From NCBI GenBank assembly GCA_017621885.1, contig JAGASD010000035.1:62001-126000 (forward strand): a stretch of DNA of 64,000 nucleotides, written 5' to 3'. This DNA is from Clostridia bacterium (GTDB lineage Bacteria > Bacillota > Clostridia > Oscillospirales > Acutalibacteraceae). Below are positions 39,818 to 60,373 of the stretch, one piece after another; the stretch's first letter is position 1, and each line of letters starts with the position of its first letter. A program made the position numbers and the translations under genes. The notes under the pieces were generated by a model that saw only the letters and a program-made list of their open reading frames with translations, was not told the DNA's origin and did not search any database.

Positions 39818-40097
39818 CTACCTCTCTGCGCAAGGAGAGAGGGGGACCGTCATATCACAAGCTTGTTGTAAAAATATAGTTATAAGTGTAACGAAAAGCA
39901 TTTGTTTATAATAAAGTTTTTCGGACGGTGGAGAGTCCACATAGCCAATTGTAAAAAACAACTCAGTTAGGACCTTCCACCACTCCGCTGAACTATATCA
40001 TAAATCATACATTACGGCTCGTTTGAAAATATGTCATAGAATAAAATTTATTACAAGGTGGTCCCCCTTCCTCCTCGCGAGCGGCAAGGAGGATAGG
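39818..40097. mobile_element. Non-coding nested inverted-repeat element 1 (280 bp)
   Basis: Outer ends are hairpins that point inward and finish in GGGGGACC: 39818-39848 (CTACCTCTC...) and 40060-40097 on the other strand (CCTATCCTCC...). Inner inverted repeats lie at 39922-39938 (CGGACGGTGGAGAGTCC) and 39970-39987 (reverse CGGAGTGGTGGAAGGTCC). The arms between outer and inner repeats are 73 and 72 nt. The payload between inner repeats is only about 31 nt. The same plan occurs in the next element and in the DUF559 element at 57050. Confidence 0.8.
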
Positions 40098-40126
40098 CTT
40101 TGCTAACATACGCTTTTTCGTTCTTC

Positions 40127-40178: not shown

Positions 40179-40575
40179 CTACCTCTCTGGCCTAAGAGAG
40201 GGGGACCATCATTTTGTCAAGCGGATGTTTGATTCAAGTTTTAAACGCGTGATTACGTTCTTTTAAAATCCAAGTTTGTCGGATGGTGGAGAGTTCCCGA
40301 TGCGTCAGCATCGTGGAAGCACAGCTTCCATTGACATAAAGTTTCTGTTATCGAGTTTTGATTTTTTTAGTGATAGCTTTATTGTTCTGATTTGTTTCAA
40401 CGGTAAGGTAAATTTATTACAATTGAATCTTACGATTCAACAACGCTTACGCGTTGGGAACTCTCCACCGCTCCGTCATACTGTATTTTTCAATATAATT
40501 TTGGGTGCGCTTGATACATATTGTAAAAGGGAAATTATTATACGGCGGTCCCCCTCTCTTAAACCGGAGAGGTAG
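40179..40575. mobile_element. Non-coding nested inverted-repeat element 2 (397 bp)
   Basis: Outer hairpins ending in GGGGGACC are at 40179-40207 and 40547-40575 (opposite strand), both beginning CTACCTCTC. Inner inverted repeats are at 40280-40298 (CGGATGGTGGAGAGTTCCC) and 40456-40475 (reverse CGGAGCGGTGGAGAGTTCCC). Arms are 72 and 71 nt. The payload of about 157 nt holds four small hairpins: 40298-40313, 40314-40330, 40423-40440 and 40442-40455. An open frame across this stretch (40276-40575) is an artefact of the repeats. Confidence 0.8.
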
Positions 40576-50254: not shown

Positions 50255-50565
50255 AATTCAAAATGCAAAATTCAAAATGCAAAATTTTGGAACGCTGACG
50301 CGTTGATTGTAATGCGAAATGCGAAGAGGGAAGTGCGAAATGAAGTTGTCAGCTGTCAGGGGTCAGGGGTCAGAATACAGTTTCTGTGGTGCGAAGCTAT
50401 ACCTCCCTCCGGGCTGAAGCTCGCAAGGAGGACAGGCTTCGCTTCACTGCAACTTTATTTATTAATCGCAACGCAGTTCCGAAATTTTGCATTTTGCATT
50501 TTGAATTCACAAAATCAACGCGCAGCGTTCCGAAATTCCTAATTCCTCACTCCTAATTCCTAATT
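50255..50565. repeat. Composite heptad-array and hairpin block upstream of the cpsB-like gene
   Basis: Five arrays of 7-bp units are packed here: 50255-50286 (AATTCAA/AATGCAA), 50311-50342 (AATGCGA/AGTGCGA), 50344-50375 (GGGGTCA), 50483-50507 (CATTTTG, 25 nt) and 50534-50565 (AATTCCT/CACTCCT). All but the fourth are exactly 32 nt. The first and fourth are the same type in opposite orientation. Hairpins AACGC-TGAC-GCGTT (50291-50304) and AACGCGCAGCGTT (50517-50529) sit 4 nt from an array. A degenerate CAACGCAGTTCC (50469-50480) precedes the fourth array. No gene is supported. Confidence 0.85.
50391..50442. repeat. Solo palindromic unit related to the DUF559-element ends
   Basis: This 52-bp palindrome starts GCGAAGC and ends GCTTCGC with CCTCC and GGAGG inside. 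It matches the outer arms of the element at 57050-57728 except that GGGGGACC is absent. The sequence after it (AATCGCAACGCAGTTCC near 50465) is also shared with 57740-57760. It could be a relic or an empty site. Confidence 0.75.
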
Positions 50566-56800: not shown

Positions 56801-56970
56801 TGAACAACACGCGCCTGAGAAACGCCGTCGATTATAATGTTTCCGTTTGCATCATACTGAACCGTTCCGGCTTCAGTATCAATTTTAAGAGACGGAAAAC
56901 CGACAGCAAACGATGTCATAACCATTATAGCTGTAAGCACTAATGAAATGACTCTTTTTGAAGTTTTCAT
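50839..56970 (-). CDS. Giant secreted protein with von Willebrand factor A domain
   Basis: At 2043 residues this is the largest gene in the window. It has a signal peptide (KTSKRVISLVLTAIMVMTSF). The first 900 residues have beta-rich repeats (GMTYYPGRDWMLVTAY, FALDAKTGDF), perhaps a propeller, followed by carbohydrate-binding-like stretches. A VWA domain begins near residue 920 with the MIDAS motif DTSSS in YIIVADTSSSMA; the VWA strand IFVTDGIPGQDDGG lies near residue 1190. About eight hundred residues of repeats follow, then a hydrophobic C-terminus (FVQELLAKLFEILSQVF). The start at 56970 has GGAGG upstream; an ATG 15 nt earlier overlaps it. Surface adhesion is the likely role. The small peptide gene is coupled to its end. 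Confidence 0.85.
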   Translation of the reverse strand: MKTSKRVISLVLTAIMVMTSFAVGFPSLKIDTEAGTVQYDANGNIIIDGVSQARVVQKDNDAYKTTYDNYAAQYLNGASVPTNIVIPGLNAKYTDKTTNQDDPGDYVVQGMTYYPGRDWMLVTAYHSDGNASSKVFALDAKTGDFVAMFSFINTDGSDNMDHGGGIAVSENNIYYSCGDKDRKIAYAPLSALENAPLYEHTKIQLVDSIDFVEVGSIEYDGKTAYTAYVCYDQGVLWMGNFYDMGAKLAGITIAAADYNAPSNDQYNSMVFGYKLAGNSSAEEWDHLKGKFRNLFNVATDSGTASSNGANMTWNAYQNIGGVGVAGTITAPTAYVGELIGNDFGSFNLTEGVNYTIEFTSTNRSTDMYMWSPVGTHCNVKQSTQSKITQLDDGRYHYKMNFTAGLKPAGADSGWPTTQSTDGSYTGTYTVRFDQDAIQAGETREFAITDIKVSQANTYANAESVHDEGYAGAPSYALALDNTLKDVQYATVDNGKLYLSRSYGSGAGNSINFGFGDTSKLTVADIDLSQPGTVPVTISTTSTGSKDKTVMAHNIADYTDYNMMPMSEGLCVIEGNIFITFEGASNKYKNESTGLTSIGNCEKPVDVIWQLDPYELMETTVVEPEASIYYEKVNSLSEIKDGEEYIIVHESDRKDPVTQKNYLYALNADGNFKDYKLSKSTADAIKGYNGMIGHPISYYSFDKIGDKEILYLEEPEKDDVEAVRWELTKTANQRYRFKNAETYFANCNYLYFDESKISMAPGNTGVLNNMSIQESGDGKGGFWISNAETYFLWCNDGTTELYNTRINSHYIKSSGSIPICSGLSETPGTFHCDALNLTQNNIIGIPVLTGADTFYEDGLFNIYRRVVDSVASTYESRVYTDLDAELQEDGTYKVTLETYAISPNHYQYVGERPTDYIIVADTSSSMASTGSTGIAEFNGSLSVSSLSVDANTSDDNGKGVNGYGFSNPDEDIYLKHTDGKYYKVYMAVNTTELDKFIGMITNIRQKYYAYYIADDGLYYCIQDHAVNPEGRTYSEWKAWVDSGENESDYSTKKNNSDRKKEDVYQGLHYRFDEAGDKYNYEHVRLDTLKTTVNDLIGDIAAQNGDNRIALVQYGADTSSGYYNTSGNLVNTGFTDAFWSAGDASGLQAKVSALGTSAQTNNNGIELQYANSIINNSGVNYKAGGDRNVAIIFVTDGIPGQDDGGSAKAAADAVIGQALTAKNNGAFVYTALLGNNEVSGFNKKNYIDGVSSKYAAAESLDKLGGMSVDGVNYSISLASTTINNFLDFGAITTEEVKTNSAVGLDNLDDRSYLLQQLNDAFKFPADFNKDRDVAVELITGEYDEIGRFSFNEANKSANEIDANAIKSATDVNTQTKTLTVTGYDYAKEYIAKNRQEEGRKLRVTISGLLADETADIRNTSINKLDTTGIYKEDGKLFRNLPTAYFNIPEYTYVLDYGISMYDSDVNGILKSVESDLSAIPRNADGTLQYRSESENGLVEITEDKLDLIYKSTPTNFADSGYCLIQREDGTYDWFEIKVVPASNVLFEENYIENKSGSTGAAWSKDGETKSDYQTPTNNNTDVYGYDDVYATGVNAHSYGSADKVTVSTNTKRSATKTFDFVGKGIDLISACGENTGIMIVKISGGNLTSPKVYIVDTYYGGDYAVGEFVYQTPIVSFRGDYGTYTVEATAAYLSSAGAVTKSITNSSLANGKLSGTTGVPVNDADVAELLAQVGMEDIASADVELVWFDDNSILNGGTGAKGNVRTARDGSTTTSLDCYLDGFRVYNPLNDDSSLYKSSEKGAVYYNVIEHLQNSGVTDADLKLGDIAYVINDFTAGEDGSIPALSFGNYQNIGPQNEFYLKNGATDGLAFKVSLNTPDSRVQLGLRAVTGTAKVKIGFDDPNTDVIEPSTEFEINTATEMYYDITQYLTKVGGGTATVTIQNTGDTVLAVNNIKVTGEAAIATIEESELEYAAMMMASSPVRANVVNGVVTPVTDDATEPDDGNTSIPGGDVIGNAPSFVQELLAKLFEILSQVFTFLPVGEVM

Positions 56971-57049
56971 CTTTTCGACCTCCATTGAAAATTTGAAATT
57001 ATATAAAAATTTAAATTAATAAATTTTTGATACCGATATTTTAATAGTT

Positions 57050-57728
57050 GCGAATCCTATCCTCCTTGCGAGCTCTGCTCGGAGGGAGGGGGACCATTCT
57101 CCGAAATAATTGTTGTTTTCAGTACATTTATCACGGGACTCAAACTATGTTTATAATATATGTTCGGGCGGAATGGTGGAAGGTGTAACAATGTAAGCAC
57201 ACTATTTTACAAACAACATTTCTACATCGACACCAAGCTCGCATACACGTTCTTCGCACACACCGCGAACTGTTTGTTCAACATTTTTTATTTTTCTATT
57301 TATATCACTATTGTAAAAACGTAATATTCTATATCCTTCGTTTTCAAGAAATCTTGTACGATTTCGTTCGTATTTTTCGTTTTCCGCAAGGTAATGCTGT
57401 TCACCGTCTATTTCTATTATCAACTTCAGTTTTGGACAATAAAAATCAACAATGTAGTTACCTATAACATGTTGCCTTAAAAATCGTGGTTTCATTCTTT
57501 TTAAAAGAATGTGCCATATTTTATTCTCTTCAACCGTTGGTTCTTTTCGCATTTTTTGAGCTCTGTTGCGTAAATCTTGTTCTCGCATTTTTGCACCTTC
57601 CACCACCCCGATAAAACTTTATTGTAAAATATACCAAGTGTCACGCACTTCAAAAAATTTCACATTTAAAATTTTCAAGGGCGGTCCCCCTCCCTCCGAG
57701 CAGAGCTCGCAAGGAGGATAGGCTTCGC
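57050..57728. mobile_element. DUF559 nuclease element with nested inverted repeats (679 bp)
   Basis: Outer arms at 57050-57095 and 57683-57728 are inverted copies, with 45 of 46 positions matching and 40 consecutive identical bases. Each is a hairpin (CCTCCTTGCGAGC with GCTCGGAGGGAGG) that ends in GGGGGACC. Inner inverted repeats are at 57169-57185 and 57594-57610, with 11 bp perfect (GGTGGAAGGTG). The outer-to-inner arms are 73 and 72 nt. Between the inner repeats is the DUF559 gene. The two non-coding elements at 39818 and 40179 share this plan. Confidence 0.85.
57202..57588 (-). CDS. DUF559 endonuclease-like protein (Vsr/PD-(D/E)XK-related)
   Basis: The 128-residue protein has the DUF559 core: NRAQKMRKEPTVEENKIWH, the strand PRFLRQHVIGNYIVDFYC, then LKLIIEIDGEQHYLAENEKYE and LENEGYRILRFYNSDI. 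The Asp in IVDF and the Glu in IEIDGEQH correspond to the nuclease-fold catalytic positions of the Vsr-like family. The start ATG at 57588 has GGAAGGTG 5 nt upstream, and this ribosome site is part of the inner inverted repeat of its element. A GTG-start reading 18 nt longer is possible. The gene is the payload of a nested inverted-repeat element. Confidence 0.88.
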   Translation of the reverse strand: MREQDLRNRAQKMRKEPTVEENKIWHILLKRMKPRFLRQHVIGNYIVDFYCPKLKLIIEIDGEQHYLAENEKYERNRTRFLENEGYRILRFYNSDINRKIKNVEQTVRGVCEERVCELGVDVEMLFVK

Positions 57729-57795
57729 ACCACCGAACTTATTCATAATCGCCAACGCAGTTCCTACATTTTCAACTTTTACTTAATCTATAATC

Positions 57796-57845
57796 AACGC
57801 GCAAGCGTTCCGAAATTCCTCATTCCTCATTCCTCATTCCTAACT
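57796..57845. repeat. Hairpin plus 32-nt heptad array at the 3' end of the radical SAM gene
   Basis: The hairpin AACGCGCAAGCGTT (57796-57809) is 4 nt from an array of four heptads (AATTCCT then three CATTCCT) and AACT at 57814-57845. The array overlaps the radical SAM coding end (stop at 57827). A degenerate copy of the hairpin sequence lies near 57747. Confidence 0.85.
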
Positions 57846-58945
57846 TTTAAAAAAGCTTGACACAGCCGATTGTATTCCTTAGCTTTCTTACAGGCATAGG
57901 TCGGTACGCCGTCGTACTTCCCGGTTTCCGCGAATGTTACTGCGGCGCATACATCACAGATTTTACGCAAGCTGCAGCTTTTACATTCGGCAGGAAGCAT
58001 TATATTTCCTCGCTCGGCGCGGATATATTGCCACGCGGCGTTGAAATCCTTAATTTCCACCGATGGAGTTACCATCATTCCGCAGGGAGTCATTTTACCG
58101 TCCCAGGTTACCCAGAAAACAGTTGACCCTGCCCTGCAGTTGATTTTTTCTCCGGTTTTGTCAACGCAAATCTCACCGAATTCTTCGGGGGATTCACCCA
58201 TTTTTATGTGATTAAGATATTTAACCATATCATCATCACCGAGGTGATGATGTTGCCAATCGAAGTGCGCCTGTGCCGCACTTTCGGCTGATAATCTCAC
58301 CGCGTCACCCTCGCAGGATGCCCGAAGGGGCGGGAACATATAGCTGACAGGCTGAATGTGTAAATCCAGAGCCTTTGCTATATCATACGCTTTAAGCATA
58401 TCATCCTTGTTATAAGGGTTAATTGAATAATTGAGCTTTATATTAACGCCGGCTTCTTTAAGAGCTTTTATGGCGTAAATAACTTTTTTGAAAGCACCCT
58501 TGTCACCGCAGAGGTTGCCGTAGGTTTCCTCGGACGTACCGTAAAGGGTGATGTTAAGCTTCTGCGGCGGATTCTCCGCAAAGAACTTAACCTTTTTATC
58601 GTCAATGAGTGTTCCGTTGGTATTCACCGACACCAGAAAACCCATTTTGCGACATTCAAGATAAATCTCTTCAAAGTCGCTCCTTAAAAGAGGTTCACCG
58701 CCCGTTAAAAGTAACAGAAGCATTCCCTCTTTGCGAGCTTCCCTCGCTAAATTCAGCCACCATTCCGTAGGCTTTTCTCTTTCGATAGCCTCGCAGGAGT
58801 TGGGGCTACGGTGTATATAACACATTTTGCAATTAAGAGTACACCTTGGGGTTAGTTCAAACGTACCCGAAAGAGGCGTCCCCTTTTCAGTACCCTTTGC
58901 AAAAAGGTGGTTAATAAAGAAATCGTAATTGAGTGAATTTGTCAT
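57827..58945 (-). CDS. Radical SAM protein with SPASM-like C-terminus
   Basis: The 372-residue protein has the radical SAM cluster motif CTLNCKMCYIH (CxxxCxxC) near residue 35 and the GGEPLL motif near residue 80. A SPASM-like region follows, with CRAGSTVFWVTWDGKMTPCGM and a Cys set CKSC, CDVCAAV and YACKK. SPASM enzymes modify peptides, or activate sulfatases, with extra Fe-S clusters. The last residues KVRNEE and the stop lie inside a heptad array. The start at 58945 has no ribosome site, because another heptad array occupies 58949-58980; a short out-of-frame uORF ends on the start codon. HprK-like and PqqD-like genes lie upstream. Confidence 0.88.
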   Translation of the reverse strand: MTNSLNYDFFINHLFAKGTEKGTPLSGTFELTPRCTLNCKMCYIHRSPNSCEAIEREKPTEWWLNLAREARKEGMLLLLLTGGEPLLRSDFEEIYLECRKMGFLVSVNTNGTLIDDKKVKFFAENPPQKLNITLYGTSEETYGNLCGDKGAFKKVIYAIKALKEAGVNIKLNYSINPYNKDDMLKAYDIAKALDLHIQPVSYMFPPLRASCEGDAVRLSAESAAQAHFDWQHHHLGDDDMVKYLNHIKMGESPEEFGEICVDKTGEKINCRAGSTVFWVTWDGKMTPCGMMVTPSVEIKDFNAAWQYIRAERGNIMLPAECKSCSLRKICDVCAAVTFAETGKYDGVPTYACKKAKEYNRLCQAFLKVRNEE

Positions 58946-58948
58946 AAT

Positions 58949-59057
58949 AATTCGTAATTCATAATTCGTAATGCGTAATTATCGGAACGCTACGCGTTGA
59001 TTATAATGCCGACCGCAGGTCCCTTAACTCCTAATTCCTAATTCCTCATTCCTAATT
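58949..59057. repeat. Two 32-nt heptad arrays with a hairpin between HprK-like and radical SAM genes
   Basis: Array 58949-58980 has AATTCGT/AATGCGT units. The hairpin AACGC-TAC-GCGTT (58986-58998) lies 5 nt after it. Array 59026-59057 has AACTCCT/AATTCCT/CATTCCT units and overlaps the end of the HprK-like gene (stop at 59038). This block replaces the expected ribosome site of the radical SAM gene. Confidence 0.85.
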
Positions 59058-59889
59058 TTTCCGCCAGGCACTTCACCGCACTTTCATCCGGTGTGCACTG
59101 AAGGTGATAGACAGGAACCTTTGAAAGAAGGTCAATGAGAGCATCAACACACTGCTGTGTTTCACCGGGGGCAACAAAGTCAAGGTAAATATTACCCATA
59201 AGGCTTTGTATTGCACTTATACCCGTAACACGATTTATTTTGTTTTCGGGAGCCTGACTTAAAAGAACTATCGCTTTAAGCGGCAGGGTTTTGTTTTTAC
59301 AAATTCCGCTTGTTCCGCAAAAAGGAAGACCGTGAGCGAAAACACTGTTTTCTTCAACAGATACACCGGCCTTGTCACCGTTAATTACCTCTGCGCCCAT
59401 ATACTTTCGCCAGAGCTCCGCCTGTGTGCTTTTACCTACACCGCATTGAGCTGTGAACAATACCGCGCCGCCATCTGTTGAAATATATGAAGAGTGAAAC
59501 AAAAGTATTTTAAAAGGCAAAAACAACTGACTTAGCGACACCGAATTCCACATATAGCGGAAATCCGACATAACGCCGTAGCTTTGATTTGTAAAATACA
59601 CCTGACTCTCAGATGTGTCGGTGACTCTGTAGCAAGAAAGTGCACCCTCAGCCACACCCATAGGGTTATGACGGAAAACCTTCTCGCCTTCCCACGAAAC
59701 AAACGCGCCGATGGGAGTTTTTTTTGTATTAACGGGAGTTTCGGGGAGCTTTTCAGCCACATTGTAGGTTATTTTAATATCTGTTTCACCCTCATTAACC
59801 GCGAAAATACTGAAGTTTTCGTGCTCGGTTAAAGGCAATGGAGATTCAATTAAAATCCGCTTACCGCAGATAGCATAATTCTGCTTCAT
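59038..59889 (-). CDS. HprK-like/PEPCK-fold kinase-like protein
   Basis: The 283-residue protein has a P-loop VLFTAQCGVGKSTQAELW near residue 165, followed by an HPr-kinase-like pattern (AEVINGDKAGVSVEENSVF, then GLPFCGTSGICKN). Such HprK-related proteins without the HPr-binding tail are found with PqqD and radical SAM genes. AGGTG precedes the start at 59889; a longer start 15 nt up has none. The last residues KLGMRN and the stop lie in a heptad array, so the native C-terminus may have been altered. A sigma-A-like promoter lies upstream. It is divergent from the PqqD-like gene. Confidence 0.8.
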   Translation of the reverse strand: MKQNYAICGKRILIESPLPLTEHENFSIFAVNEGETDIKITYNVAEKLPETPVNTKKTPIGAFVSWEGEKVFRHNPMGVAEGALSCYRVTDTSESQVYFTNQSYGVMSDFRYMWNSVSLSQLFLPFKILLFHSSYISTDGGAVLFTAQCGVGKSTQAELWRKYMGAEVINGDKAGVSVEENSVFAHGLPFCGTSGICKNKTLPLKAIVLLSQAPENKINRVTGISAIQSLMGNIYLDFVAPGETQQCVDALIDLLSKVPVYHLQCTPDESAVKCLAEKLGMRN

Positions 59890-59922
59890 TAAACACCTAC
59901 CCACTATCCCATTATTATGAGT

Positions 59923-59951
59923 ATAGTACTACAAACACACAAAAAAGTCAA
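59923..59951 (-). promoter_or_regulatory. Promoter of the HprK-like/radical SAM unit
   Basis: On the minus strand TTGACT (59951-59946) and TACTAT (59928-59923) are 17 nt apart, about 30 nt before the HprK-like start. Confidence 0.7.
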
Positions 59952-60037
59952 CAAAATCAAGACTTTTTTTTGGCTTTTCAAGGGATTTTTTTCATAAAAT
60001 TGTGTCGTATTTTTCTTGCACCACAATTTATTGTGTA

Positions 60038-60065
60038 TTGAATTTTTTATTCAGTATGGTATACT
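60038..60065 (+). promoter_or_regulatory. Promoter of the PqqD-like gene
   Basis: TTGAAT (60038-60043) and TATACT (60060-60065) are 16 nt apart with an extended -10 TGG. Transcription would start near 60072, about 30 nt before the ATG. Confidence 0.75.
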
Positions 60066-60100
60066 ATAAATTGTAGAAAAAATTCGGAGTGTGTAAATAT

Positions 60101-60373
60101 ATGGATAATAAAACTTATCGTTTAAAGCCCGGCTACGTTTTGCGTGAGATTGCCGGTGAGCACCTTGCAATCCCCGTTACTGCAGAAAACTCCTCTGACA
60201 TCGTTGTACTCAACCCCGTCAGCGCAATTTTGTGGAATGAGCTTGAAACGCCAAAAACCATTGACGAATTAGCAGACAGAATTTGCAGCAGCTTTGATAT
60301 AAGCCGAGAGGAGGCAACGGCGGATATTAAGGAGTTTGTTGAGACGCTTGTTGCTGCAGGAGTAATAGAATAA
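60101..60373 (+). CDS. PqqD-like peptide-binding chaperone protein
   Basis: The 90-residue protein has the PqqD/RRE-like winged-helix pattern: KPGYVLREIAGEHLAIPV, then DIVVLNPVSAILWNELETPKTIDELADRICSSFDI and a final EFVETLVAAGVIE, given here as landmarks. Stand-alone PqqD proteins hold the leader of a RiPP precursor for a radical SAM enzyme. GGAG lies before ATG 60101; an ATG 12 nt earlier overlaps that site. The partner genes at 57827 and 59038 are divergent from it. No precursor gene lies next to it, though a candidate sits at 50605. Confidence 0.88.
   Translation: MDNKTYRLKPGYVLREIAGEHLAIPVTAENSSDIVVLNPVSAILWNELETPKTIDELADRICSSFDISREEATADIKEFVETLVAAGVIE

Follow-up and report, generated by a model that had tools for sequence, protein, structure and literature searches.

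The window, the whole 64,000-nt stretch of DNA analysed, carries a 681-nt element composed of an arm, a DUF559 nuclease gene and a second, inverted arm. The initial annotation described this gene as nested within inner and outer inverted repeats, and a computed repeat search reproduces that nesting in coordinates and spacings alike. The outer repeats (57049–57095 and 57683–57729; 47 nt, 98% complementary) are separated by 73 and 72 nt from the inner ones, which begin at 57169 and finish at 57610. Alignment reveals that the whole arms are akin over ~140 nt, beyond these two named repeat stretches. The ORF containing the gene spans 57202–57606 on the reverse strand, and GGTGGAAGG, inside the right inner repeat, sits immediately 5′ of the DUF559 ATG; the earlier observation that the ribosome site forms part of the inner repeat holds, and this is where such a site is expected. 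The features, with the evidence for each in brackets, are:

57049–57184, forward strand: left arm, a two-hairpin REP-like unit consisting of H1, H2 with a ~75-nt loop and the purine tail GGTGGAAGGT (repeat search, alignment, fold)
57061–57089, forward strand: left H1 hairpin; the stem includes a G x G mismatch as well as a T.G pair (single-strand DNA fold; alignment of 17 copies)
57093–57177, forward strand: left H2, stem of 57093–57105 with 57163–57177, core ACCATTC/GAATGGT (centroid fold; H2 covariation in related short-loop units)
57169–57185, forward strand: left inner repeat, which closes the left arm and mirrors the start region of the gene (repeat search)
57202–57588, reverse strand: DUF559 (PF04480) nuclease gene, 128 aa from the ATG at 57588, frame open from a GTG at 57606 (ORF, Pfam, structure model)
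57594–57610, reverse strand: right inner repeat, with the purine tail GGTGGAAGG at the expected ribosome site (repeat search)
57594–57729, reverse strand: right arm, a second two-hairpin unit, inverted, with H2 stem ACCGCCC/GGGGTGGT and a ~72-nt loop (repeat search, alignment)
57689–57717, reverse strand: right H1 hairpin (single-strand DNA fold)
40060–40102, reverse strand: copy of the terminal hairpin without a gene (repeat family search, same 64-kb window)
50402–50442, reverse strand: degenerate copy of the terminal hairpin (repeat family search, same 64-kb window)

The element lies beside a radical SAM gene (57827–58945), on the downstream side of that gene. Radical SAM, HPr kinase-like and PqqD-like genes, named by reading their translations, lie near one another at 57827–60373 and look like a peptide-modification cluster. 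A second small hairpin repeat (GGAACGC..GCGTTGATTATAAATTAAGTTGC or GGTACGCATCTATGCGTACC) often adjoins the H1 end, both at 57730–57860 in the window and in many copy flanks; it could serve as a target or represent one more nested repeat. An Rfam scan of 56900–57900 gives a single match, whose 16.8 bits fall short of the cut-off of 60, hence no known RNA family or intron.

The 128-residue protein read from the ATG at 57588 is confirmed as a member of DUF559 (Pfam E 4.7e-30), one of four DUF559 matches in its own genome, and it is little more than a catalytic domain. The best PDB matches of its AlphaFold2 model (pLDDT 88.5) are NGO0050 (3hrl) and the homing endonuclease I-Bth0305I (3r3p; Foldseek E 1.6e-4); Vsr (1vsr) resembles the fold weakly (E 0.16). 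D54, E65 and H71 are invariant in an alignment of 22 DUF559 proteins, and the protein is predicted to adopt the EDxHD homing endonuclease catalytic fold. YcjD was assigned to the PD-(D/E)XK superfamily already by 2005 (PMC1189080). I-Bth0305I is also the closest protein of solved structure whose function has been described (PMC3943268), which lends some weight to a homing-type role, in which DUF559 would cut empty alleles and these would be repaired from filled ones by gene conversion, with no true excision or insertion. The small repeat that many copies adjoin, as a possible target, fits such a role as well. It is nonetheless an unlikely explanation: copies lie in many places with unrelated wider flanks, and gene-less units lack the very nuclease that homing would spread. 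The element resembles I-Bth0305I in the modelled fold of its catalytic domain; unlike it, there is no Rfam intron match, the gene is bounded by dispersed palindromes, and related elements stand at different places.

The arms are a dispersed repeat. The left arm, put forward in the initial annotation as the query for further copies, has 46 matches at E ≤ 1 in its own genome, its own two ends counted. Comparison of copies gives the unit order H1 (CCTCC..GGAGG), GGGGGACC, H2 and tail GGTGGAAGGT. The H2 loop measures ~75 nt in left arms and ~72 nt in right ones, and is a few nt long in short units. Within 190,533 nt of the own genome, sequence chosen round matches, 54 H1 ends occur (24 left-type, 11 right-type, 11 short-H2, 5 other and 3 cut). 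Fifteen of the 54 lie <300 nt from contig ends, and some may be one copy seen twice; nine score <25 bits and represent divergent kin or stubs. Most copies in this sample are single. Facing pairs without DUF559 measure 289, 309 and 470 nt, those of a divergent sister family 292 and 294 nt, and the two with DUF559 681 nt (window) and 697 nt (contig C21). A 632-nt facing pair on contig C2, which probably consists of a truncated pair and a neighbouring short unit, was left out of the count. Adjoining the second DUF559 element, at C21:87136–87162 (G000, L104), is a 27-nt terminal hairpin stub, perhaps a scar.

The two-hairpin structure is borne out by folding and covariation. Three whole units form two hairpins when folded as single-stranded DNA (z -3.2 to -3.4); H1 alone, also as single-stranded DNA, gives z of -2.7 and -2.2, and one short piece lacking a bulge only -1.0. 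For H2, 51 of the 77 distinct units (159 rows) were usable, the other 26 having too short an insert; 200 of their 204 stem positions pair, against 55% expected after reshuffling of partners and 66% in the best of 1000 shuffles; counted by distinct inserts, 180 of 184 stem positions pair in 46 of 65. A simple consensus pattern with mismatches was dropped, since it gave 9 true against 7 control matches.

The arrangement extends to other DUF559 loci. An inverted repeat of ≥40 bits spans the gene in 44 of 111 DUF559 loci; none of 769 windows taken from these loci has one, and among 48 isolated ORFs 2 do (Fisher 1e-6 for loci against ORFs). The 111 loci comprise 80 named ones, the best 80 of at least 567 relatives (at least 587 stretches), and 31 unnamed ones; 31 of 46 unnamed DUF559 matches entered, 32 having loci and L064, a fused frame, being dropped. 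Because some named loci repeat unnamed ones (e.g. L116 and L070), the count was also made by clusters at 90% identity, and 40 of 100 clusters carry an inverted repeat at the ≥40-bit level. At 40 bits, direct repeats occur in 29 of 111 loci, 6 of 769 windows and 4 of 48 isolated ORFs. At 35 bits in either direction, 67 of the 111 loci are reached and 44 have neither kind. Seven of the 18 named loci judged by title to lie outside Firmicutes reach 35 bits in either direction (L124, L131, L140, L148, L153, L187 and L191), with inverted repeats only in L148 and L191. A phylum sample, outside the 111-locus count, holds DUF559 in 5 of 199 genomes at E ≤ 1e-15, the own genome included.

These counts bear on a chance or static arrangement, that is, terminators or assembly repeats standing round an ordinary gene. 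Hairpins near genes are common, 15 of the 54 copies are near contig ends, and isolated ORFs, too, have some 40-bit repeats (inverted 2/48, direct 4/48). Even so, such an arrangement is highly improbable: the 46 left-arm matches, together with the 44 of 111 loci against none of 769 windows, argue that this is not chance, the share among isolated ORFs is far below that of DUF559 loci, the paired arms measure 140–198 nt in several loci, and elements are present or absent between species.

At the species level, elements come and go. The junction between the radical SAM gene and a big ORF is filled in the own genome and holds no element in two sister species, G013 and G007, whose radical SAM proteins are 85 and 87% identical. 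Upstream of the radical SAM gene, other DUF559 genes with their own repeats are found in G013 and G003, and no DUF559 element in the own genome or G007. The comparison of orthologous loci proposed in the initial annotation thus yields an empty junction in two species; it is empty at the level of the locus rather than base-exact, the flanks there having diverged and containing other small repeats. Since gene-less copies are dispersed and the element is absent at this locus in two sister species, its description as a mobile unit is well supported. Two patterns had been named as contrary to that description. Repeats always at fixed orthologous loci are not what is seen, elements standing at differing loci; and no same-clade orthologue without repeats appears among the eight loci examined of the window's clade (clade A), all of which have flanking inverted repeats of 61–229 bits (a 71-aa fragment in G006 lies outside this set).

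Gene and repeat also form cognate pairs. Two DUF559 clades of the own genome carry two different repeat families: the protein at C21:87363, 87% identical to that of the window, has arms of the window's family, and a paralogue on contig C51, 47% identical, has a different arm family. The C51 arm has 44 matches in its own genome, fragments counted, and 0, 2, 6, 7 and 8 in five sister genomes. A gene-less arm pair of the C51-cognate family lies in the window at 40186–40567, close to the A-type hairpin at 40060–40102. Across 263 cross-genome pairs from 24 same-genus loci, protein identity correlates with arm similarity (Spearman 0.35), a value reached in 0 of 2000 permutations with no correction for phylogeny.

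Presence and absence follow the same line. Eight of 40 genomes, the own one included, have ≥5 units of the window's type (tail-A), a cut chosen after the counts were seen; the window's DUF559 clade (≥57% identity) is present in six of these eight and in none of the other 32 (Fisher 7e-6; 4e-4 within the 22 genomes of the genus). In G005 and G017, whose assemblies are 81 and 84% complete, 12 and 7 tail-A units occur and no clade-A gene was found; G004 has three tail-B units with no DUF559 found. A Y1_Tnp (PF01797) profile search of the own genome, which is 94% complete, gives no match, and Y1_Tnp matches are present in 13 of the 40 genomes. The view that the element fits neither classical IS nor intron types agrees with these results, as there is no Rfam intron and no Y1 transposase, Y1 being the transposase type searched.

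A further possibility is that another enzyme, a transposase or recombinase, mobilises the repeats in trans and that DUF559 is a passenger gaining from its ride between two copies. Solo and paired copies carry no gene, those 13 relatives do have Y1_Tnp, and some sister-species tails read GGTAG (L047, L065). The nearest report in the literature rather fits this possibility too: in Legionella pneumophila, DUF559 occurs in three copies of a larger repeated, recombining segment that also holds a transposase (PMC12308824). The window's element differs from that segment in having no transposase, and palindromic units are not mentioned for Legionella in the accessible text. Three results make a passenger rather improbable. 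The own genome has no Y1_Tnp match although its repeat family is dispersed (Y1_Tnp being the sole trans-acting enzyme searched), protein and arm co-diverge between genomes, and two DUF559 clades with two repeat families in one genome would be needless for a passenger.

The closest known plan is that of REP/REPIN sequences and their RAYT (TnpA-REP, "REPtron"). Its features, as two sources give them, are many short palindromes, inverted doublets with a spacer, a stem mismatch, a cognate gene flanked by its own repeat, and several gene–repeat pairs per genome (PMC3116915, PMC8266576). The family described here shares the many-copy palindromes, the inverted doublets, the gene between its own repeats, the several pairs and the stem mismatch, and the order arm–DUF559–inverted arm parallels the REPIN order arm–spacer–inverted arm. 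Unlike RAYT, the enzyme is a DUF559 protein of the PD-(D/E)XK kind, not an HUH/Y1 transposase; unlike REP, there is no conserved GTAG before the hairpin (only 1 of 54 H1 ends has one within the 12 nt before H1), and a second hairpin and a purine tail are present. The element would work like REP/RAYT without being a RAYT, a Vsr-like nuclease standing in the transposase's place.

Other systems are less close. Terminal inverted repeats and gene-less copies are shared with MITEs and classical IS; unlike in those, the ends are hairpin units in their own right, which occur alone as well. Vsr and Caulobacter VsrA belong to the same nuclease superfamily; VsrA contains a DUF559 domain, and a function in mismatch repair has been proposed for it (PMC12907096). 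Unlike Vsr and VsrA, DUF559 here goes with hairpin repeats. The T.G pair in the H1 stem recalls the T:G mismatch nicking of Vsr, a likeness that is suggestive only.

A family of small mobile DNAs with a REP-like two-hairpin unit, on whose hairpins DUF559 would act in a REP/RAYT-like life style, is the explanation we consider moderately probable. The DUF559 protein, a Vsr/I-Bth0305I-like nuclease, would recognise the hairpin unit, composed of the mismatched H1, H2 and the purine tail, in its extruded or single-stranded form, as on the lagging strand for instance, and would cut at or beside it. Cellular repair and recombination might then copy a single unit, a pair or a gene-bearing pair to new places; copies lacking the gene would be moved in trans. 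A hydrolytic nuclease would thereby replace the tyrosine transposase in a REP/RAYT-like life style. Movement by the element's own nuclease, as the initial annotation supposed, is our best guess; we infer it from sequence comparison, where the cognate pairing and the lack of a Y1 transposase in the own genome favour it. Counting against it are the 44 of 111 DUF559 loci without a repeat at 35 bits, the tail-A units of G005 and G017 without a clade-A gene, the tail-B units of G004 without DUF559, and the mismatch-repair role proposed for Caulobacter VsrA.

Small nucleases or ORFs are tied to dispersed repeats in the haloarchaeal palindrome-associated elements and in the case of the Neisseria GIY-YIG nuclease Ssn; a literature search for Neisseria Ssn found no paper on Ssn with repeats. 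Among the literature on DUF559 with repeats, mobility or transposition, no link to palindromic repeats was found, most subscription journals and bioRxiv lying outside the search. Literature on REP with other nucleases gave no DUF559 link, and PMC8049555 yielded nothing on other nucleases.

Taken as a whole, the data point to mobile DNA of a kind that has received little notice, driven by a nuclease of the repair type. Many bacterial genomes contain short palindromic repeats for which no mover is known. If the explanation is true, a domain of unknown function gains a role in moving palindromic repeats, and a second fold beside the HUH transposase runs REP-like DNA. The question can be tested in E. 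coli K-12, since ycjD belongs to the DUF559 family and adjoins such repeats.

Distant cases bear on a broader and more doubtful proposal, which we hold only tentatively: that DUF559 (YcjD) is a RAYT-independent class of enzyme, a hydrolytic Vsr-like nuclease acting on two-hairpin ssDNA units, which spreads palindromic repeats in bacteria as far apart as gut Clostridia (CCTCC..GGAGG), Acinetobacter, N. gonorrhoeae (NGO0050) and E. coli (ycjD). It would account for many repeats that lack a RAYT. At locus L217, the gonococcal gene is NGO0050 of structure 3hrl (E 6e-65). Both this gene and E. coli ycjD adjoin CCCTCTCCC-type repeats, for ycjD on the downstream side only; the E. coli repeats read CCCTCTCCC..GGGTTAGGGTGAGGGG, also given as CCCTCTCCC..GGGTGAGGG. 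Read by eye at the sequence level, the distant repeats seem to share a plan of a C-rich/G-rich palindrome followed by a purine tail. Of 5426 E. coli genomes, 3365 have a match to ycjD. In one E. coli chromosome, the tail of the repeat is matched 13 times at ≤3 mismatches, against 0 for the control.

Between gntP and fimH of E. coli, three alleles have an 83-nt repeat-bearing stretch and three have 14 nt (alleles compared: L221 1400–1660 and L232–L236); no target duplication is seen, and the difference is a replacement, which agrees with the homing-type role considered above. The ycjD locus is a replacement and not a clean empty site. E. coli strains without ycjD are reported to have the eefRABCD operon in that place (PMC12817139), and a sequence search finds fabI without ycjD in such strains. 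The tkt–ypfG repeat alternates with a different repeat and likewise offers no clean empty site. In one E. coli locus (L216, 3273–3342 and 3379–3447), the 3′ end of ycjD and its adjoining repeat occur twice in tandem before fabI.
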